Shown: positions 2,149 to 18,738 of the stretch, piece after piece
How the letters are laid out: every line of letters starts with the position of its first letter
How positions within the stretch are numbered: the first letter of the stretch is position 1
IMG/VR virus record: IMGVR_UViG_3300023481_000016
Coordinates: 1 to 20,187 of that record
DNA from: a virus
Length of the DNA: 20,187 bases
Strand: one strand, 5' to 3'
Translations under genes and position numbers: made by a program
Notes under the pieces: generated by a model
What the model saw: only the letters and a program-made list of their open reading frames with translations
Databases searched by the model: none
Told to the model about the DNA's origin: nothing

Positions 2149-2643
2149 TCACTGTCCCACCTGCTGTGGATCGTAGGCATAAGCGACAAGCCCAACGTGT
2201 AGACCGCGCCCCGATTCGGCCATCGAATACACGACCTGTAATACGCTCCCCTCGGGTACCAGAACACCAACACCGTTCGGGCCAACGGCAAACCGCTTCG
2301 ATGCGTTGTAGTACAGGCCGCCGGTCTGGATGCTCTTGTTATCGCCATGGGCATTCGGTGGCCCAAGATTGTCTCCGCCGTGTTTGTGCGGGCACACGCG
2401 AGCGAGTCTCTTGGTGCGCACCTTGTCGCCATCTTGAACCAGAAGGTTGGCCTCCAAGTCAGCCTCATTCCACTGCTCGGCGAACGTGCCGAAGAAAAAC
2501 TCGACCGCATATACAACCATCGGCCTGCCCCACAGGCGCCGTTCAGCCTTGAGCGGAACGTGGATTGGCGTGCCCTGATTTTCTTCCCATGACACCTCGA
2601 AACCTCGATGTGCTAGCGCCATGGCAGGTATCGGGCTGATCAT
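2149..2643 (-). CDS. Hypothetical protein, 164 residues
   Basis: I do not recognise this protein. The start ATG at 2643 overlaps the previous stop (ATGA). A longer version from GTG at 2682 is less likely because it would run into the upstream gene. The sequence is soluble, mixed alpha/beta and rich in Gly, Val and Tyr toward the C-terminus (VGPNGVGVLVPEGSVLQVVYSM), which suggests a beta-sandwich or virion surface domain. One stretch has CPHKHGG, with a cysteine and two histidines that could bind metal. It is tightly coupled to the 330-residue gene upstream, so the two may act together. It is the last gene before the structured intergenic region. A tail or accessory virion role is a guess. Confidence 0.7.
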   Translation of the reverse strand: MISPIPAMALAHRGFEVSWEENQGTPIHVPLKAERRLWGRPMVVYAVEFFFGTFAEQWNEADLEANLLVQDGDKVRTKRLARVCPHKHGGDNLGPPNAHGDNKSIQTGGLYYNASKRFAVGPNGVGVLVPEGSVLQVVYSMAESGRGLHVGLVAYAYDPQQVGQ

Positions 2644-3632
2644 TTCGACAGCCTCCCGAGCAGCTTGCAGATCGAGCGCCACGGTTCCACCCGCAGATCC
2701 AGCAGCCCTGGATACTGGCGCGGATTCACGCGCGGGTTCTGGGCCAGGTGCCAGTCGCCGGTGTGCAAGAGGAAGAACCAGTCACGCTCATATCGTTGCG
2801 CAACAGCGTATGCAAGACGGAACCAAGTCTTTAGCTGTTCCATGTCACCGGCCGGGAGCGCCGCATAGGGCCGGAGTGCGAGTAGGCTGACCCCCTTCTT
2901 GCGCCACTCCTTGCGGATCTTCGGGTCCAGGTCCCACAGTTCGCGGCTCTTGCCCCAACCATCAAGCGCCCAGATGCACTCACCTGCTACCAATGATGCC
3001 AGCCGATCCGGCATCGGCGGAACCTCGCCGGGCTGGCTGTGGTGCTCGAACCTGTTGCCGCTCATGCCGTCAGTTGGCAACGCATCAATAAACTGGTAGT
3101 CACCGGCCTGGTAGATAGAATTCTGAACCCCGTTCTCTGGCGGTGGCACATCGAACGGTCCGAAGTATGTCTCAACGCCTCCGATGTAGGTCGCACCAGT
3201 ACCAAGGCGTCTGCGGACCTCATCGTAATAGCCGAGCTGGGCGTCGCGTGCCCTGTCCGAGAAACCAGCGAACTCGGACCGTAGGATGGGCGCGCCACGC
3301 AGCTTATAACCGTCCACCGACCCACGGTCGATCCGCCTGAGTGACGCCCCCATGAGCAGGTACACAAATAGCGTCAAGCCGAGGTCGTCACACTGCTTCG
3401 CCAGCGCCTCAAGGTCTCTCCAATGGTTCGCCTTGACGTGAGCGAAATCCCTACCTACGAACGGCCCCGGAGACGCCTTGACAGTCGGACTAGCTCTTGG
3501 ATATTCATTGAAAATGAACGGACAGATGGCAATCCCATTGAGCCCATAGCGCCAGGCTTGCTTGACGAACTTCCGCTGAGCACCACGCTTGTGCGTGAGT
3601 AGCGTCTGGCTCCAGATCCCACCTCTCGTCAT
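2640..3632 (-). CDS. Unknown 330-residue protein, possibly TIM-barrel glycosidase-like
   Basis: The start ATG at 3632 follows the previous stop by three bases. I recognise no family firmly. Short hydrophobic beta strands followed by helices recur: GLNGIAICPFIF near residue 30, then LEALAKQCDDLGLTLFVYLL near 74-93, then a YIGGVETYFGPFD stretch, then GVSLLALRPYAALP. This alternation resembles the (beta/alpha)8 barrels of glycoside hydrolases and related domains. Many Trp, Tyr and acidic residues would suit carbohydrate binding. No signal peptide is present. It lies after the transglycosylase and mini-membrane genes and is coupled to the 164-residue gene that follows. A polysaccharide-degrading or receptor-related role is possible but unproven. 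Confidence 0.75.
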   Translation of the reverse strand: MTRGGIWSQTLLTHKRGAQRKFVKQAWRYGLNGIAICPFIFNEYPRASPTVKASPGPFVGRDFAHVKANHWRDLEALAKQCDDLGLTLFVYLLMGASLRRIDRGSVDGYKLRGAPILRSEFAGFSDRARDAQLGYYDEVRRRLGTGATYIGGVETYFGPFDVPPPENGVQNSIYQAGDYQFIDALPTDGMSGNRFEHHSQPGEVPPMPDRLASLVAGECIWALDGWGKSRELWDLDPKIRKEWRKKGVSLLALRPYAALPAGDMEQLKTWFRLAYAVAQRYERDWFFLLHTGDWHLAQNPRVNPRQYPGLLDLRVEPWRSICKLLGRLSK

Positions 3633-3635
3633 CTC

Positions 3636-3803
3636 TCAGTCCACGACATGATCAGTCTCACAGTGCCGGTCGAGAAGCTCTTTGAGCGACTGGCGGGCGT
3701 CGATGATGAACCTCTGATCTGTGACGGTCTCGCCCTCGGTGCGGCGAAGGTGCTTGATAGCTTCCTCGATGTCGTGTCGGTCGCGTGAGGTGAACAGACT
3801 CAT
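3636..3803 (-). CDS. Small soluble hypothetical protein, 55 residues
   Basis: The start ATG at 3803 overlaps the stop of the 27-residue membrane protein (ATGA), which selects it over a longer frame beginning at 3932. The protein is highly charged and probably helical, with RDRHDIEEAIKHLRR followed by DARQSLKELLDRH, and has no membrane segment. There is no good Shine-Dalgarno sequence, so translation probably depends on coupling to the upstream gene. It closes the row of tiny genes after the transglycosylase. A cytoplasmic partner of the mini membrane proteins is conceivable. I do not recognise a family. Confidence 0.65.
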   Translation of the reverse strand: MSLFTSRDRHDIEEAIKHLRRTEGETVTDQRFIIDARQSLKELLDRHCETDHVVD

Positions 3804-3883
3804 CGGCCGTAATCCGATCCGATCCCACCGAGCAGCAGGTACGCCGCCAACAGCACGAGCAGCAGCGCTACAGGCCAGTTCAT
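3800..3883 (-). CDS. Mini membrane protein, 27 residues, single span
   Basis: The 27-residue frame begins at ATG (3883), which overlaps the stop of the gene before it (ATGA). A Shine-Dalgarno run, GGGGAGGAACGG, precedes the start. Nearly the whole protein is one hydrophobic helix (PVALLLVLLAAYLLLGG, residues 4-20) with a short polar C-terminus (IGSDYGR). Such a protein can only act in the membrane, for example as a mini-holin, an antiholin or a regulator of another membrane protein. Its overlaps on both sides with genes arranged the same way argue that it is real despite its size. Confidence 0.65.
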   Translation of the reverse strand: MNWPVALLLVLLAAYLLLGGIGSDYGR

Positions 3884-3981
3884 CCGTTCCTCCCCTGCCA
3901 CCACGCGCGCAAGATGCCACCCGCCAACACAACGATCAGCGCCCACACCAACAAACTCGTATACCCGCGTAGGTCGATCAC
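3880..3981 (-). CDS. Mini membrane protein, 33 residues, single span
   Basis: Translation starts at GTG (3981), overlapping the previous stop as GTGA, with GGGAGG about eight bases upstream. The longer frame from 4137 runs through the upstream genes in another phase and is rejected. A hydrophobic helix (LLVWALIVVLAGGILRAWW, residues 10-28) is followed by a basic end (QGRNG). The topology is probably N-out or N-in single span; I cannot decide. It is the second of three consecutive single-span proteins and belongs to the candidate holin/antiholin set. Confidence 0.65.
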   Translation of the reverse strand: MIDLRGYTSLLVWALIVVLAGGILRAWWQGRNG

Positions 3982-4094
3982 CGGAACATCCTCCCTGCGA
4001 GTCGGTGCAGGTCTCGAACGGCAAACACGAGCGCGGTAACAGCGGCCACGATGATCACCAGCCCGATCACGACCGATAACACCACCAATATCAT
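3978..4094 (-). CDS. Mini membrane protein, 38 residues, single span
   Basis: ATG at 4094 shares its A with the TGA stop of the 88-residue gene (TGATG). The frame encodes a hydrophobic helix from residue 2 to about 25 (ILVVLSVVIGLVIIVAAV and on) followed by a basic amphipathic tail (RDLHRLAGRMFR). Such a layout, a membrane span plus positive tail, is common in small phage membrane proteins. Its end overlaps the next mini gene by four bases. It is the first of the three mini membrane genes. Confidence 0.65.
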   Translation of the reverse strand: MILVVLSVVIGLVIIVAAVTALVFAVRDLHRLAGRMFR

Positions 4095-4360
4095 CACGCT
4101 CGCTTCCTGCGCCTGAGCCGCGAGATGTTGGATTCACGTTCTCGACGCTGCTGTGTAACGGCTATCCTGCGGCGGCGCTTGTCGAGTTCGGCATCGGTTC
4201 TTGCGACAGCATCGATGCTGTATCTCGGATTGATCTCATAGCCTGTTTGATCCATTTGTCCACCGAGGGACAGGCCAGAAGGATGTAGCGCATCACCACG
4301 ACCAAACAACGGCAGTTGACGACGAGAGAACGCCACAGCTATCCAGCGCAGATATCTCAT
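4094..4360 (-). CDS. Small basic hypothetical protein, 88 residues
   Basis: ATG at 4360 overlaps the transglycosylase stop (ATGA). The protein is very basic: its last 30 residues contain Arg/Lys clusters such as DKRRRRIAV and SRLRRRKRA, probably a long helix. The N-terminus (MRYLRWIAVAF) is mildly hydrophobic but too short for a clear membrane span. Nucleic-acid binding, or contact with the inner face of the membrane through positive charges, are both possible. I do not recognise a family. The position between the transglycosylase and the mini membrane proteins points to a lysis-related or accessory role. Confidence 0.65.
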   Translation of the reverse strand: MRYLRWIAVAFSRRQLPLFGRGDALHPSGLSLGGQMDQTGYEINPRYSIDAVARTDAELDKRRRRIAVTQQRRERESNISRLRRRKRA

Positions 4361-4890
4361 GTCAATAGCTCCTGTTCGAGGTCCAGGACTTTGCTCGCGT
4401 AGGCCATGCCGACTTCACGGTGCCGGCCACCCGGCCCCGCGTTGTAGGCCGATATGCCCTCTGTCTCGCCGAACCTCATGATCAGATACGCGAGAAATGG
4501 CACCCCGATCCCTAGATTGATTGCTGGGTCGCACAGCACTGGTAGGTCTGGCCCCTGTAGCCCCTGCTCGCGGGCGACAGCACCCATGATCTGCATCAGT
4601 CCCCAGCTCGCCTGCTGCCCCCACCACTCAGCAGTTGAGCTTGTCCCCCGGGGGGCAGGGAAATCTGCCGGCGGTGACTCCGATGCAGACTCAAACCGGG
4701 TCAGCGGCCTGAACGGTGAACCACGGCGGATGTCCCACAGATAGTGGTATCTCGGCTCTGGCCGCCACGCATACCGCCGGCCCCCTGACTCCACCATGAT
4801 CAAGGCGCTGATCAGCGATGCACGCAGACCCGAGGAGATCGCACGCCCCTCGATCATGTCCGCATACTCAGCCAACTCTGGATGGATCAA
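4357..4890 (-). CDS. Lytic transglycosylase (endolysin candidate), SLT fold
   Basis: This 177-residue protein carries the three signatures of the soluble-lytic-transglycosylase/goose-lysozyme fold: the catalytic Glu34 in LIMVESGG, SWGLMQIMG at 95-103, and SAYNAGPGG at 147-155. Such enzymes cleave the glycan strands of peptidoglycan between MurNAc and GlcNAc. Residues 60-90 form a Pro/Ser-rich insertion between the catalytic helix and the GLMQ motif. TTG at 4890 overlaps the previous stop (TTGA) and is the likely start; ATG at residue 12 is the alternative. There is no signal peptide, so release would need a holin, and membrane protein genes flank it on both sides. It could also be a virion-borne enzyme used at infection, but the lysis context favours an endolysin. 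Confidence 0.88.
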   Translation of the reverse strand: MIHPELAEYADMIEGRAISSGLRASLISALIMVESGGRRYAWRPEPRYHYLWDIRRGSPFRPLTRFESASESPPADFPAPRGTSSTAEWWGQQASWGLMQIMGAVAREQGLQGPDLPVLCDPAINLGIGVPFLAYLIMRFGETEGISAYNAGPGGRHREVGMAYASKVLDLEQELLT

Positions 4891-5177
4891 TGGCCCAGTA
4901 TCCGCGTGCGGACATACGCCCCAACGGACGCGACAATGATGCTCCAGATGGCATATATATGACGGTCTCGGCGGCGCCTGTCATCCTCCAGCGATGTGAC
5001 CCTACCGACCATTCCCGGGTCGCCGTTCGAGCCTCTGAGCGTGCGAGCGATTGCGTGGAGCTCACTGCATATTTGCTCGTGCTGTGTGGTGTGCTGCTCG
5101 CGGTCCAGGCTCACCGCGGACACAAGAGCATCCACCTTTGCGCCCAGAGCTGCGACCGTCACACGCTCAGCCATCAT
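4887..5177 (-). CDS. Coiled-coil protein with C-terminal membrane anchor
   Basis: Two adjacent ATG codons (5177 and 5174) follow the previous stop as TGATGATG; the first gives 96 residues. Residues 1-48 are helical and heptad-like. A GDPGMVGRV turn (52-60) leads to a charged helix (LEDDRRRRDRH). A membrane segment follows at about 74-90 (IYAIWSIIVASVGAYV) with a short basic tail. This coiled coil followed by a C-terminal span resembles holin-associated proteins of the XhlA type found next to phage endolysins. It directly precedes the transglycosylase and overlaps it by four bases. It may tether, regulate or help the lysis enzyme. A holin function on its own is also possible. Confidence 0.7.
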   Translation of the reverse strand: MMAERVTVAALGAKVDALVSAVSLDREQHTTQHEQICSELHAIARTLRGSNGDPGMVGRVTSLEDDRRRRDRHIYAIWSIIVASVGAYVRTRILGH

Positions 5178-5476
5178 CACTCCGCCGGTTTGTACTGGAC
5201 CAGATCGCACGCGGCAGACACCGAGTCAGCCTCCACGTCAGCCTCACAAATGTCGATGATCGCGCCCCGCAGCTTGGCGATCTCTGCACCGAGCCGCTGC
5301 CGGTCGATCTCGATCGCTGTCACGAGCTGGCGCACCTGGACAGCCATACCGCCAGCGCTTGCAAGCGTCTCGGAGAGCTGGATCGCAACCTGCGTCGGTG
5401 ACGGTTGTTGTTGTTGTGCGCCAACAGAGACAGCGGCCATCATGATCACAGCGAGCGCAACCAGTGAGCGCCTCAT
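5177..5476 (-). CDS. Small exported protein, coiled-coil, 99 residues
   Basis: ATG at 5476 overlaps the previous stop (ATGA). Residues 1-20 form a clear Sec signal peptide: MRR, a hydrophobic core and the cleavage site VGA|Q. The mature part begins with a Gln run and then forms a long helix with heptads (VAIQLSETLASAGGMAVQV, then REL-like charged repeats to about 70). Two cysteines near the C-terminus (ICEADVEAD and AACDLVQY) could form a disulphide after export. The protein should reside in the periplasm or outside the cell. It is the third signal-peptide gene in a row. An outer-membrane spanin-like or fibre-associated role is possible, but no lipobox is present. Confidence 0.7.
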   Translation of the reverse strand: MRRSLVALAVIMMAAVSVGAQQQQPSPTQVAIQLSETLASAGGMAVQVRQLVTAIEIDRQRLGAEIAKLRGAIIDICEADVEADSVSAACDLVQYKPAE

Positions 5477-5901
5477 TGGATTGCTCCCGCCGGCAGGAGT
5501 TGATCCGGCTGGTACTGCGCAATATCACCCTTGCCCCACGCGATGAGCCGGTTCTGGAGACTCTGACCGGCACTGAAATTCATGGTGTTGATGAGCACGA
5601 TCAGGCTCCACGCCTTGTCGTTGCACACGTCGGGCGTCGTAGGGTCGGCGTCGTCGTCCACCATCGCGTCCAACGAATAGGCGGTCAGCGTCACGCTGCC
5701 AGCGCTTACCTCCAGATGTACGCGCGCGTCGCACGCGGTCGCTCCGGAGCGCGGTGCAATGCGGAAGTGGCTGATTCGGAAGTTCGTCTCTCCCGCCTCT
5801 GCCTGTTGCGGTACGGTCGTGACCAGCGTTTCCTGCGCGTAGGCAGGCACCACGATCATCGCCAGCACCAATACAGTTCCGATTGTGATTCCCCGTCTCA
5901 T
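5473..5901 (-). CDS. Exported protein of unknown function, 142 residues
   Basis: ATG at 5901 overlaps the stop of the tail-fibre-like gene (ATGA), which places the start ahead of a textbook Sec signal peptide (MRRGITIG, hydrophobic core, AYA|Q near residue 23). A longer frame from 6018 lies inside the fibre gene and is rejected. The mature part has beta-strand-rich segments (NFRISHFRIAP, VHLEVSAGSVTLTAYSLD) and an end of LINTMNFSAGQSLQNRLIAW. Two cysteines (in ATACDAR and PDVCNDK) may pair. I do not recognise a family. Its position directly after the fibre is typical of fibre assembly chaperones or attached tip proteins, but those are normally not exported. Confidence 0.7.
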   Translation of the reverse strand: MRRGITIGTVLVLAMIVVPAYAQETLVTTVPQQAEAGETNFRISHFRIAPRSGATACDARVHLEVSAGSVTLTAYSLDAMVDDDADPTTPDVCNDKAWSLIVLINTMNFSAGQSLQNRLIAWGKGDIAQYQPDQLLPAGAIQ

Positions 5902-8135
5902 TGTTGCGCCTCCCCCGTGTAGACCAGCTTCTCGCCGGTCAGTTTCTCGACCAACCTGATAACGCGCAGAATATCCACGGTGATATATTTTCCGTCTCGC
6001 TCGGAGTAGTAGGACCACGCCATCGACTCGCTGGGTCCGTCCGGCAGGCGCGTGAAATTGTGCGGCGAGAGCACCGTGATATTTGTCGCCTCGTCCCTGA
6101 CCTTCAGCTCTGAGGATGAAGCGTCATCCTGTGCGTACAGGACGACTCCGTTCGTCTCACCGCTCGTGGGTGCCGTTCCATTGAACAGCGACACCGTGTT
6201 TGTTCCGTTGTTTGCTGGCGTTCCACCAACCCCGAAAAGCACCGTATTGGCAGTCCAAACGGTATCAATTGTCCGTTCGGATACGGTGAGCATTTGCAAG
6301 CCACCCGGCCAAAACTGAATCTCGTCCCCCGCTGCGTTGTTTCGCATATAGGTGTTCTGGTCGTACCCCCAAGTGTAGAAAGGGGTTGCGCCATCAAGAC
6401 TGAGTAAGCCGTCGCCTTCCAGTCTCATCGTGCGGGCAATTGTGCCGTTATCGACCGTGTAAAAAACTATGCTGCTGTCCTCGACTGCCGCAGTCTCGTC
6501 GTCAACTAAGAACCCAATTCTCGCGTATTCAAATTGTCCAGCAGTGTCCTTATCGGCGAACAGACTAATCCAGTAGGTATCTCCGATTCCCGGAGGAGCA
6601 CGAGTGGGGCCGTGAACTCCGACAATGCGACCCGTGGCTACATCGCCGGGATCGATCACTTCGAACCGCAACTCGCCGCCTGCAGTCAAGCCCCAGTTGT
6701 CAGCGCCGATCCTGTAAACACCCGAATCGGTGTCGCTGGTGAAAAACTGGCCCGGAGATGCTGCGGTCCCGTCTGACCATGAGCCTCCGCCCGCAGCGGC
6801 CTGAAATGTAGGTGCAGCCCCCGCTCCATTGCTAGTGAGTACCTGTGCTGCTGTGCCAACTGCAACCGTTGCAGCTACGCCTGCAGCATCCCACGTGATT
6901 AGCTCCCCATCGGTGCCATTGGCGAGCCCGGCGACCGGTAGCCCGGTAGCGTTCGTGAGGACAATTGCAGACGGAGTGCCAAGTGCTGGCGTGACCAGTG
7001 TCGGAGAAGTACCAAAGACCACGGCGCCAGTACCGGTTTCTCCAGTCACCGCGGCAGCGAAATTCGCGGTAGATGGCGTCGCCAGGAATGTCGCTACTCC
7101 GGTCCCAAGACCCGACACTCCGGTAGCAATCGGCAGCCCTGTCGCGTTGGTCAGCACCCCGCTCGCTGGAGTTCCAAGTGCTGGAGTAACCAGGGTCGGA
7201 GAGCTGGCGAGCACAACCGCTCCTGTTCCAGTCTCGTCACTGATTACACCCGCAAGCTGTGCCGATGACGTGGCAGCAAACACGCTCAGGTTGTCCGCCA
7301 CCATCGCGGCCAGCGTCCCGAGGTCCGTGATGTTCGCCTCCACATGCGTATGTCCGGGCGCTGAGTAGTCGGTGCCAGACACAGCGATCGAGACGACTCC
7401 CGTCGTTGTGGTCGATTTGAGAATGCCGGTAGCCAGTGCGCCCAACGCCTGCTCTGCACTCAGCGTCGCGTTGGCCGTCTGCGTGATGTAGGTAGCGTCT
7501 GTGGGGGCTCCGCTACCAGCACCGGCCCCCGTGGTCTCGGTCCACACCGCAGCCCCAACGGTCGAGTCCAGCAGCACGTAGGCTTTGTCATTCGTCTCAT
7601 CCAGCCACACCGTGCCGACCGAATATCCATCGCCGCTATCGTCGGTCACCAGTGGCGCTGTGGTCCTGCCGCGGATTACGTGCGTCGCCCCGAGGTTCGT
7701 CTCTATCGCGATCGTCTCCAGCGCCAATTGCTGGATCAGTCCGTTGACATCTCCCAGGAACACATCATCGGTGATCGCGTGTGCTGTTGCGTTCGTGCCC
7801 CACTTGGCCCGCTCGACAACATGAAATGTAGAGCCGGTCTTGGTGTCGAACCGCATGATCTCGATGCCGGCATCACAAGCGCCGGTCGTAGCGCAGTTGC
7901 CCACGAGCACATATCCAGCAGCGGGCCATCCGGTAGTAGTCGATACCGAGATGTCGAACGGAACAGCCGCTCCAGCCGTGATCGCGACCGAGAGCGTGGT
8001 CTGTACTTGGAGCGTGTCGCCAGGATCGGGGAGCTCTGTCGTGGTGACCACCGCTCCCGGATATTGCGCCTGCGCCCATAGTGGGGTGGAAATAGCAAGC
8101 ATGAAGCAACAGCAGATGATCGCTCGTTTTATCAT
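5898..8135 (-). CDS. Tail-fibre-like protein with N-terminal signal peptide, 745 residues
   Basis: ATG at 8135 overlaps the previous stop (ATGA). Residues 1-23 look like a Sec signal peptide: MIKR, a hydrophobic stretch with three cysteines, and the cleavage site AQA|Q. The rest has tail-fibre hallmarks: low-complexity Thr/Ala/Gly-rich beta sequence, a GTDYSAPGHTH motif near 254-264, and two copies of a 35-residue repeat (301-335 and 366-400) containing SPTLVTPALGTP, which is common in fibres of environmental phages. The conserved C-terminus (690-745, with MAWSYYSERDGK and VEKLTGEKLVY) resembles fibre C-terminal trimerisation or assembly modules. Fibres bind the host receptor. A signal peptide is strange, because virion proteins assemble in the cytoplasm. 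The protein may be exported, or the hydrophobic segment may be kept. Confidence 0.8.
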   Translation of the reverse strand: MIKRAIICCCFMLAISTPLWAQAQYPGAVVTTTELPDPGDTLQVQTTLSVAITAGAAVPFDISVSTTTGWPAAGYVLVGNCATTGACDAGIEIMRFDTKTGSTFHVVERAKWGTNATAHAITDDVFLGDVNGLIQQLALETIAIETNLGATHVIRGRTTAPLVTDDSGDGYSVGTVWLDETNDKAYVLLDSTVGAAVWTETTGAGAGSGAPTDATYITQTANATLSAEQALGALATGILKSTTTTGVVSIAVSGTDYSAPGHTHVEANITDLGTLAAMVADNLSVFAATSSAQLAGVISDETGTGAVVLASSPTLVTPALGTPASGVLTNATGLPIATGVSGLGTGVATFLATPSTANFAAAVTGETGTGAVVFGTSPTLVTPALGTPSAIVLTNATGLPVAGLANGTDGELITWDAAGVAATVAVGTAAQVLTSNGAGAAPTFQAAAGGGSWSDGTAASPGQFFTSDTDSGVYRIGADNWGLTAGGELRFEVIDPGDVATGRIVGVHGPTRAPPGIGDTYWISLFADKDTAGQFEYARIGFLVDDETAAVEDSSIVFYTVDNGTIARTMRLEGDGLLSLDGATPFYTWGYDQNTYMRNNAAGDEIQFWPGGLQMLTVSERTIDTVWTANTVLFGVGGTPANNGTNTVSLFNGTAPTSGETNGVVLYAQDDASSSELKVRDEATNITVLSPHNFTRLPDGPSESMAWSYYSERDGKYITVDILRVIRLVEKLTGEKLVYTGEAQQ
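6936..7040 (-). repeat. Fibre repeat copy 2 (35 residues)
   Basis: This segment encodes residues 366-400 of the fibre-like protein (ETGTGAVVFGTSPTLVTPAL and onward to ATGLP). It matches copy 1 at nearly every position in protein, apart from short differences (VFGT for VLAS, SAIV for ASGV). Such repeats are found in beta-structured shafts. Confidence 0.75.
7131..7235 (-). repeat. Fibre repeat copy 1 (35 residues)
   Basis: This segment encodes residues 301-335 of the fibre-like protein (ETGTGAVVLASSPTLVTPAL and onward to ATGLP). It is a direct repeat of the segment at 6936-7040 and has the same orientation and frame, spaced 195 bases start to start. Gain or loss of copies by recombination would keep the frame. 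Confidence 0.75.
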
Positions 8136-14792: not shown

Positions 14793-15227
14793 CTAGCTCC
14801 AGACAGCCGCGCCAGTCGCCACGAGCTCGGACTCGAATCGCTGGATGTTGTCCGTGCTCGCGATCGCCTTGTAACGAGTCAGGTGGTACTTGCGAGTCCA
14901 GGTCTTGGAGTCGCCAAACACCAGCACGAGCTCGCGCCCAACACTCGCGGGCAGCTTGTCGGCCGCCGCGATCTGAAACATCGCATGTGACCCCGTGGTC
15001 GCGGTCGTGTCGAAGTACCCGCTGAGCGTCAGGTTCGGCGAGTCGGTGATCCCGACAGGCACACGCGAGCGCGCGCTATCGCCCAGAGCGGTCGTCTCGT
15101 CCATCTCCTGGATGTCCTCAGCCGAGATGCCGTTGAGCAGGAATCCGTGAATGTTGCGCGACGTCCCGCCAGGTGAATCCTGGAGGGTGCAGGTGACTGA
15201 ACTCGGACTCTGTTTGCCTGGCGCCAT
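14793..15227 (-). CDS. Second tail tube-like protein, 144 residues
   Basis: ATG at 15227 has AGGAG nine bases upstream. The N-terminus MAPGKQSPS is nearly identical to that of the gene upstream (MAAGKQSPS), and a second shared region reads EIxExxETTxxGxxARxRxPxGIT (about 36-60). The two are therefore paralogs. This one lacks the long middle and C-terminal domains of its neighbour and resembles a single-domain tail tube subunit. It could be the main tube protein, with the longer one decorating it or lining one end, or the reverse. It has its own leader (15228-15313), so it is probably made at its own level. Confidence 0.75.
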   Translation of the reverse strand: MAPGKQSPSSVTCTLQDSPGGTSRNIHGFLLNGISAEDIQEMDETTALGDSARSRVPVGITDSPNLTLSGYFDTTATTGSHAMFQIAAADKLPASVGRELVLVFGDSKTWTRKYHLTRYKAIASTDNIQRFESELVATGAAVWS

Positions 15228-15313: not shown

Positions 15314-16297
15314 TCAACTCCTCGCAAATGCGATCAGTGAGGTGAGCGAACCCGATCCCGTGAGCGTGCCGGTCACGCTGAGGTAGCGGTCGATGTCGCC
15401 GGCCACCGTGACCCGCTCCGCGAACGGGGCGCTGACGTTATCGGCGAAGCTGAGAACATCGGCGAACGAAATATCGTCAGTGCTGTCGCGGATCTTGCCG
15501 ACGAAGTTGGTGAACCCCGACGCAGCCGTGACTTGCAGGTACCCGACCCCGCCGCCGGCCGAGTCCGCACGCACGAACGAGCCGCCCGTACCGCCCACCG
15601 TCACGTTCACCGGGATCGTGAACGTGGTAGTGGTCACGACCGTCGCGACCTGCTCGGCGTTGATGCTCGGCGTCGCCCCGCTATGCCCCGATATCAGCAC
15701 CTTGTCGCCAGTGGTCAGACCGTGCGCCACGGTCGTTGTAATCACTGACGGGTTGGCAACCGACGAGCTTGTGATCGGGATCGCGATCTGCGAGATATCG
15801 GCCGTGTAGTCGAAGCTCGATGCCTCGGTGTTCCAGGTCGCCGTCTTGGCTGCGAGCGGTTGCAGGATGATCGCCGGGTCGTGATTCCCATTCATCGCGT
15901 ATTCAACATCGACCTTTTGCAGGTCGTCGTCGCTACCGATCACCTTGTAGCGGTTGTTGTACCCGCCCTCGAAACACTGGATCGGAGCGTTCTCTTCGTT
16001 GCCGGCGAAGCCCGCGCACACTATCCGCACGTTCGACGTTGGCGATGACCCGAGTTTTGTTGCCAGCGCGTCATGGATCGAGTTGGTTGCGGTGTCCCAG
16101 AACGCGCCCTGTTGCTCAAGCGTCACGCTCGTGATGCCCTTGGGTGCCCGTGTGCGCGCAGCCATCCCGACGCCCGTGGTCTCGGAAATCTCGCTGATCT
16201 CTTCGAACGACAGCGGGCTCGTGCCGGTAGAGGCCAGCATGTTGTAGCCGTCAACCAGCAGTTGCGCGCCGGATGGGCTCTGTTTACCTGCTGCCAT
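15314..16297 (-). CDS. Major tail tube protein with extra beta domains, 327 residues
   Basis: ATG at 16297 follows GAGGTG five bases upstream. Residues 1-150 form the tube domain and share the MAxGKQSPS start and the SEISETTGVGMAARTRAPKG region with the next gene. Residues about 171-243 hold a module with ANPSVITTTVAHGLTTGD and TTTTFTIPVNVT, a beta insertion common in phage structural proteins. Residues about 250-327 form another beta domain ending in LIAFARS. The tube polymerises below the neck and carries DNA during ejection; extra domains would decorate the outside of the tail. Length is large for a tube protein, owing to these modules. Confidence 0.85.
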   Translation of the reverse strand: MAAGKQSPSGAQLLVDGYNMLASTGTSPLSFEEISEISETTGVGMAARTRAPKGITSVTLEQQGAFWDTATNSIHDALATKLGSSPTSNVRIVCAGFAGNEENAPIQCFEGGYNNRYKVIGSDDDLQKVDVEYAMNGNHDPAIILQPLAAKTATWNTEASSFDYTADISQIAIPITSSSVANPSVITTTVAHGLTTGDKVLISGHSGATPSINAEQVATVVTTTTFTIPVNVTVGGTGGSFVRADSAGGGVGYLQVTAASGFTNFVGKIRDSTDDISFADVLSFADNVSAPFAERVTVAGDIDRYLSVTGTLTGSGSLTSLIAFARS

Positions 16298-18120: not shown

Positions 18121-18192
18121 TAGCAGGGGCTGGATTCGAACCAGCAATCTCCAGGTTATGAGCCTGGCGAGCTACCGTTGCTCTACCCTGCG
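18121..18192 (-). tRNA. tRNA-Met (anticodon CAT), initiator-like features
   Basis: The 72-base minus-strand sequence folds as a full cloverleaf: acceptor arms 18186-18192 and 18122-18128, D stem GAGC/GCTC, anticodon stem CCAGG/CCTGG with loop CTCATAA (CAT anticodon), five-base variable loop, and T stem GCTGG/CCAGC with TTCGAAT. The discriminator base is A and CCA is not encoded. The 1-72 position is a C/U mismatch, and the D stem has A11-U24; both resemble bacterial initiator tRNAs. The anticodon stem has two of the three G-C pairs typical of initiators. A CAT anticodon could instead mean Ile-tRNA with lysidine. Confidence 0.9.
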
Positions 18193-18201
18193 TTCCGATC
18201 A

Positions 18202-18738
18202 TCATGCCCGCACCGCAGTCCTGAATCCGCGAGAGCGCCCGCGAATGCTCGTATACCAATCGCGGGGCAGCAAGAGTGCCACAGCATCCGGAACGCGCGC
18301 TTCGGCGCCACTCACCCCCGACCCGAACTCCAGCGACACCGGCCCCGCTTTCAAGCTGCGGATCTTCTGCTTCTCGATGTCGCTATCCGCTGCCAAGTCC
18401 GACGCGATCAGCAGCCGCGCGTACTCGCACTGCGCGTCTTTGAGCTCCTGCGGGATTACCGTGGTCGCGATCGCGTTGTCGTTGCGGTCCCACATCCCGC
18501 TCCGGGGCCAGGTGAGCGCCTGCGTTGAATCCACCCGGTAACCAGTCCACGCAAACAGCGACTCCATGAGCTTCGCGGCCCACAACAGCGCCTCGTCCTT
18601 GACCGCAGACGCAGCGCCAGACCACTCGTTGCCAGAGCTGGCGGGTCGAGAATCGTCGTAGTTGTCGCACTCGCTTTGTGTCGCGAACGTGTTGCTCGAC
18701 GCCCCGCCCACAGTTGCATCCAGCGTCGCCAGTGCCAT
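18202..18738 (-). CDS. DnaT-like head-tail connector protein, 178 residues
   Basis: ATG at 18738 overlaps the previous stop (TGATG). Helices dominate: AVKDEALLWAAKLMESLFAWTG, then LTWPRSGMWDRNDNAIA (with TWPRSG as key motif), then QELKDAQCEYARLLIASD. This matches the phage family often labelled 'DnaT-like ssDNA-binding', which by position is a head-tail connector (adaptor) attached to the portal ring. Length is typical. It comes after the coat, decoration and small structural genes and before the head-closure gene. The 'DnaT' label reflects weak similarity; the structural role is inferred from the order. Confidence 0.75.
   Translation of the reverse strand: MALATLDATVGGASSNTFATQSECDNYDDSRPASSGNEWSGAASAVKDEALLWAAKLMESLFAWTGYRVDSTQALTWPRSGMWDRNDNAIATTVIPQELKDAQCEYARLLIASDLAADSDIEKQKIRSLKAGPVSLEFGSGVSGAEARVPDAVALLLPRDWYTSIRGRSRGFRTAVRA

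Follow-up and report, generated by a model that had tools for sequence, protein, structure and literature searches.

Positions 1 to 20,187 of the virus record IMGVR_UViG_3300023481_000016, the whole 20,187-base stretch of DNA analysed here and hereafter called the window, contain a series of three very small overlapping genes, each predicted to encode a peptide with a single membrane-spanning helix. These genes, which are known from this single record, all lie on the minus strand, and we name them after the length of their products in amino acids (aa). The first, m38, encodes 38 aa and occupies positions 3978-4094 (ATG start at 4094, stop codon ending at 3978). It is followed by m33, which encodes 33 aa at 3880-3981 (GTG start at 3981, stop codon ending at 3880), and by m27, which encodes 27 aa at 3800-3883 (ATG start at 3883, stop codon ending at 3800). 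An in-frame GTG at 4097 offers an alternative start for m38, which would give a product of 39 aa. The frames, coordinates and lengths proposed for this trio in an earlier note on the same DNA are all correct, and both of the overlaps it described are present: m38 and m33 share 4 nucleotides (nt), GTGA, and m33 and m27 share another 4 nt, ATGA. The Shine-Dalgarno sites that it assigned to the second and third genes were also found when the upstream sequences were inspected by eye, as GGGAGG 8 nt 5' of m33 and GGGGAGG 5 nt 5' of m27; the ribosome site of m38 is weaker (AGGA). The same tight packing is seen on either side of the trio. Upstream, an open reading frame (ORF) of 88 aa overlaps m38 by 1 nt (TGATG), or by 4 nt (GTGA) if the GTG at 4097 is taken as the start, and downstream the start of a gene for a 55-aa protein overlaps the m27 stop codon by 4 nt (ATGA).

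All three products are strongly hydrophobic. Membrane calls were based on hydropathy only, and topology on charge counts only. As assessed on the Kyte-Doolittle (KD) scale, the most hydrophobic 17-residue stretch scores 3.36 in m38, 2.74 in m27 and 2.41 in m33, and the residues that follow this core number 6, 9 and 21 in the three peptides. On the C-terminal side of its helix m38 carries charges of +4/-1, and m33 has +2/0 on the C-terminal side and +1/-1 on the N-terminal side. This pattern favours an orientation with the N terminus outside and the C terminus inside (N-out/C-in) for m38 and, less clearly, for m33; that of m27 favours neither orientation. There is no cysteine in m38, m33 or m27. 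In a two-component spanin, one partner is a lipoprotein with a lipobox cysteine, and we rejected a spanin pair because the trio has none. The charges also bear on the idea that the trio is a single gene for a three-helix class I holin, which has been split by frameshift errors or mutations. Three helices and a summed length of 98 aa (38 + 33 + 27) do come close to the dimensions of a class I holin, and both steps from one frame to the next are the same frame shift. However, both breaks would have to coincide exactly with the GTGA and ATGA overlaps after strong ribosome sites. In addition, a fused protein would have the basic ends after helices 1 and 2 on opposite sides of the membrane, contrary to the positive-inside rule, whereas as separate peptides both helices fit an N-out/C-in orientation. 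In view of the junctions and the charges, we rejected a broken holin gene, which is highly improbable.

To be considered a chain, ORFs of 20-60 aa had to contain a 17-residue stretch with a mean KD value of at least 1.8 and to be linked by overlaps of 1 or 4 nt. When the window was shuffled 400 times with dinucleotides preserved and read on both strands, no hydrophobic chain of three was found (0 of 800 strands) and a chain of two appeared once (1 of 800). When the hydropathy criterion was dropped, chains of four or more were common in the shuffles, and it is therefore the membrane property that makes the trio unusual. Real DNA gave a similar picture: the trio is the sole chain of three in a set of 44 sequences that includes the window itself (597,194 bases, scanned on both strands) and that also contains two chains of two. 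It was still the sole chain of three under looser linking rules in 84 sequences, some of them overlapping, that amount to 1,116,240 bases. Under these rules three chains of two also appeared, in L021 and L081, and the one that was inspected (in L021) looked like part of longer frames.

We next turned to coding potential, using a codon model trained on the larger genes of the window with the three small genes left out. For each of m38, m33 and m27, the proposed frame scores highest of the six, and third-position guanine plus cytosine (GC) content is 0.76, 0.82 and 0.78, respectively. When 130 spurious ORFs of 20-60 aa located inside larger genes were used for comparison, none equalled the coding score of any of the three (0/130 each), and none equalled their hydropathy (again 0/130 each). 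Both amino-acid composition and codon choice contribute to this coding score. A synonymous score, which reflects codon choice alone, was equalled by 0/130 spurious ORFs for m27, by 9/130 for m33, which amounts to weak support, and by 40/130 for m38, which amounts to none, so amino-acid composition accounts for part of the m38 coding score. Two further explanations can be judged from these results. One is that the three ORFs arose by chance in GC-rich DNA or belong to an RNA element. The GC content of the window (60.5%) favours open frames, homologues are lacking, chains of small ORFs are common in shuffles when hydropathy is ignored, and the synonymous score of m38 is ordinary. Nevertheless, with hydropathy taken into account none of the 800 shuffled strands reproduces the trio, and its coding scores exceed those of all 130 spurious ORFs. 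An RNA element was rejected because the fold z-score is only -1.32, with 18 of 200 shuffles folding equally well, and because an Rfam search at the trio returned no family. We thus consider this explanation improbable in both its forms. The other is that the small genes are merely the 3' parts of longer, in-frame genes with starts further upstream (ORFs of 85 and 74 aa). The frames are indeed open that far, but the added N-terminal parts score negative as coding sequence (-0.11 and -0.06), the longer ORFs would overlap heavily with their neighbours, and their GTG and TTG starts have no clear ribosome site. Longer genes were rejected on the negative coding scores and are very unlikely. The trio is more than chance, and its three ORFs are very probably coding; the earlier proposal that they are genes for tiny membrane proteins is well supported by the coding scores, the hydropathy and the shuffle test.

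The trio belongs to a run of minus-strand genes in the order 95-aa gene, SLT-type transglycosylase, 88-aa ORF, m38, m33, m27, 55-aa gene and 330-aa gene. The run is packed tightly, with successive overlaps of 4, 4, 1, 4, 4 and 4 nt and then a 3-nt gap. The transglycosylase (4357-4890, 177 aa, TTG start) matches Pfam PF01464 (expectation value (E) 7e-11) and is a likely endolysin. The earlier note had placed the trio just after this gene, which holds as regards proximity but not direct succession, since the basic 88-aa ORF (4094-4360) intervenes, coupled to the transglycosylase by a 4-nt overlap and to m38 by the 1-nt overlap. On the other side of the transglycosylase, and coupled to it by 4 nt, lies a gene for a charged 95-aa protein (4887-5174) with a hydrophobic C-terminal stretch, noted by eye, for which a family search gave no match. 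Downstream of the trio, the 55-aa gene (3636-3803) encodes a soluble protein; its coding score is equalled by 0/130 spurious ORFs, and its best homology match, at E 4, is not significant. The 330-aa product of the last gene in the run (2640-3632) matched nothing in Pfam, PHROGs, NCBIfam, phage records or viral contigs. A scan of 2600-5000 for promoters and terminators yielded nothing resembling a terminator and a single promoter-like site, on the plus strand; shuffled sequence gives at least as many.

Holins are small membrane proteins encoded in or near a lysis cassette, and the trio answers to this description, with its predicted helices and an SLT transglycosylase two genes upstream. To see what usually lies downstream of such enzymes, we used the 37 viral loci that encode relatives of this transglycosylase (42-56% identity in the best segment). 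Removal of near-duplicates recognized by eye (L005, L013, L028 and L029; L005 is similar, not identical, to L004) and of two loci with too little downstream DNA (L023 and L024) left 31 loci. In 17 of these 31 loci, the 1.2 kilobases downstream of the SLT gene contain one or more small hydrophobic ORFs that have a ribosome site, compared with 14.1% of 1550 control windows from the same loci and strand; two or more are present in 6 of 31, compared with 2.5% of controls. The ORFs counted are 51-135 aa long, lipoproteins and signal-peptide proteins among them, and because the loci are mutually related the counts are not independent. Small envelope proteins thus appear to be habitually encoded in the zone 3' of the transglycosylase, which is what one would expect of a lysis module. 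A lysis-related role for the trio fits both its place two genes after the SLT transglycosylase and the small membrane or exported ORFs found in distant SLT relatives.

Taken together, these findings lead us to view the trio as an unusually small, multi-gene holin-like cassette, a reading to which we give a probability of about 0.5 and in which we infer expression, topology, joint action and a function in lysis. In this model, m38, m33 and m27 would be three real, translationally coupled genes in one packed operon with the transglycosylase. Ribosomes finishing one frame would re-start at the 4-nt overlap, which would link the amounts of the three peptides. Each product would consist of one membrane-spanning helix with almost no soluble domain, and would insert in the cytoplasmic membrane, with the N terminus outside and the basic C terminus inside in the case of m38 and, less clearly, m33. 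The peptides could then act within the membrane, where they might pack against one another or against a holin or some other membrane protein. Jointly, they may have a holin-like or holin-modulating action, helping to depolarise the membrane or to time its opening for the transglycosylase, which is the type of action favoured by the gene neighbourhood. A more specific and unlikely version is a split holin, in which the three coupled single helices would come together in a single hetero-oligomeric membrane lesion, with the re-initiation ratio serving as the lysis timer.

The main competitor, possible but distinctly less probable than a holin-like cassette, is that the trio encodes real coupled membrane peptides with no part in lysis. 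They would instead be subunits or anchors of a membrane or exported protein, or an exclusion or host-takeover device. Tiny single-span bacterial proteins commonly regulate larger membrane complexes, several proteins of the window look exported by eye, and the window contains other holin candidates. Against this, the proximity of the transglycosylase and the enrichment downstream of its relatives point to lysis, and no specific partner is linked to the peptides.

A number of observations weigh against the holin-like reading, in addition to the ordinary synonymous score of m38 and to the make-up and relatedness of the loci behind the enrichment. The window has two more ordinary holin candidates, recognized by hydropathy only, both on the minus strand: a 116-aa membrane protein (1317-1667, KD 2.43), with no family and no phage match, and a 97-aa membrane protein (1668-1961, KD 1.86), with no significant family. 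The coding score of the 88-aa ORF, the link between the trio and the transglycosylase, is weak (equalled by 24/130 spurious ORFs), and a search for homologues found none; the overlaps of this ORF nevertheless match those of a real gene. The trio has no significant match in Pfam, PHROGs or NCBIfam, holin families included, and weak profile matches to hydrophobic families (e.g. phrog_24480 with m38, E 0.0063) were treated as an effect of composition. The specific labels offered in the earlier note (a mini-holin and antiholin set, an exclusion device, partners of exported proteins) therefore stand only as candidates. A tblastn search of 50,697 phage records with m38 returned nothing at E 10, and m33 gave only matches at E 2 in phage records. 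For m27, nothing was found in 22 records with related tail genes, a search that was confined to those records and had no positive control. A chain of three is absent from all SLT-relative loci examined. An SLT match is present in 1 of the 22 related-tail records searched, and there no cascade of small genes follows it, although a stretch that looks two-helical by eye precedes it. Since no homologue of the trio was found, evolutionary evidence speaks neither for nor against its frames.

Searches with neighbouring proteins (transglycosylase, 330-aa, 541-aa, trypsin-like, 88-aa, tape measure and tail) identified no close relative. Apart from the transglycosylase, matches to the 37 loci are confined to the tape measure protein (two loci) and to a short piece of the tail region (one locus). 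The 541-aa and the trypsin-like proteins yielded no relatives, and a search for tape measure relatives yielded one locus. The tail protein encoded at 15314-16297 found 5 loci in one search and 29 viral loci with an alignment in another, and no relatives in genome contigs.

Other features of the window were noted along the way. Visual inspection suggests signal peptide-like starts in four minus-strand proteins (547-1236, 5177-5476, 5473-5901 and 5898-8135). One of the four is a 745-aa protein of the tail-fibre region, and another is a trypsin-like protease (Pfam Trypsin_2, E 2e-13). Similar-looking starts are seen in the viral locus L040 at 3745-4188 and 4185-5036. In the tail region, the minus-strand neighbours 14793-15227 and 15314-16297 may be paralogues, as each matches the counterpart of the other in L040 or L041 with about 22-28% identity. 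A gene for a methionine transfer RNA (tRNA-Met, anticodon CAT; 18121-18192, minus strand) adjoins a minus-strand gene (18202-18738) that matches Pfam DnaT_2, a putative single-stranded DNA-binding protein (E 2.4e-27). This name may mislead, because the gene sits among head-tail-like genes.

Gene callers readily overlook genes as short as these (27-38 codons), and the annotation of lysis modules may therefore be missing parts. A role in lysis would make the trio a minimal set of nearly bare helices, with which one could ask how little protein suffices to hold a membrane or to collapse it on a timer. Even without such a role, it remains a clear example of coupled micro-genes in a phage operon.

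Among the titles and abstract openings surveyed, which included few subscription papers, no tandem of three single-span phage proteins shorter than 40 aa is described. Comparable elements exist individually. YohP, a bacterial membrane protein of 27 aa, has a single helix (PMC7549839). The trio is alike in size and in having single helices, but it is a coupled triplet in a phage operon and no homology to YohP has been shown. The lambda S holin has 105 aa and three transmembrane domains (PMC9671378). Class I holins of this type are matched by the trio in number of helices and in summed length (about 100 residues), whereas the trio consists of three genes with three starts and no family match. 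A lambda-type holin/antiholin pair consists of two forms made from two in-frame starts, and m38 has two candidate starts, GTG 4097 and ATG 4094.

Closer parallels are found in multi-gene cassettes of actinophages, whose lysis cassettes include holin-like genes for single-helix proteins coupled through ATGA (PMC13056207, PMC9671378). In the mycobacteriophages Girr and NormanBulbieJr, the genes lysF1a and lysF1b stand in tandem, in that order, and share 4 bp (ATGA). LysF1b has 124 aa and a single helix with a predicted N-out-C-in topology and a long charged cytoplasmic domain, and deletion of lysF1b impairs lysis (PMC13056207). The likeness lies in tandem small membrane genes in a lysis cassette, in the ATGA overlap and in the basic residues that follow the helix of LysF1b. 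Much as lysF1b is coupled to the membrane gene upstream of it, m33 is coupled via GTGA and m27 via ATGA. The trio differs in that its products of 27-38 aa are almost only helix and come three in a row, and no sequence relation was found. In Gordonia rubripertincta phages, as many as four membrane genes can form an array, either within the endolysin cassette or away from it, and one such array is described with overlapping frames. The single-helix proteins of these phages have 79-145 aa and cytoplasmic domains of 52-115 aa (PMC9671378, Table 6), whereas the products of the trio are all single-helix, shorter than 40 aa and have 6, 9 and 21 residues after the core in place of a LysF1b-like cytoplasmic C-terminal domain of at least 52 aa. 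The trio therefore falls outside such cassettes on the cytoplasmic domain, but resembles in outline a multi-gene holin-like cassette of this kind.
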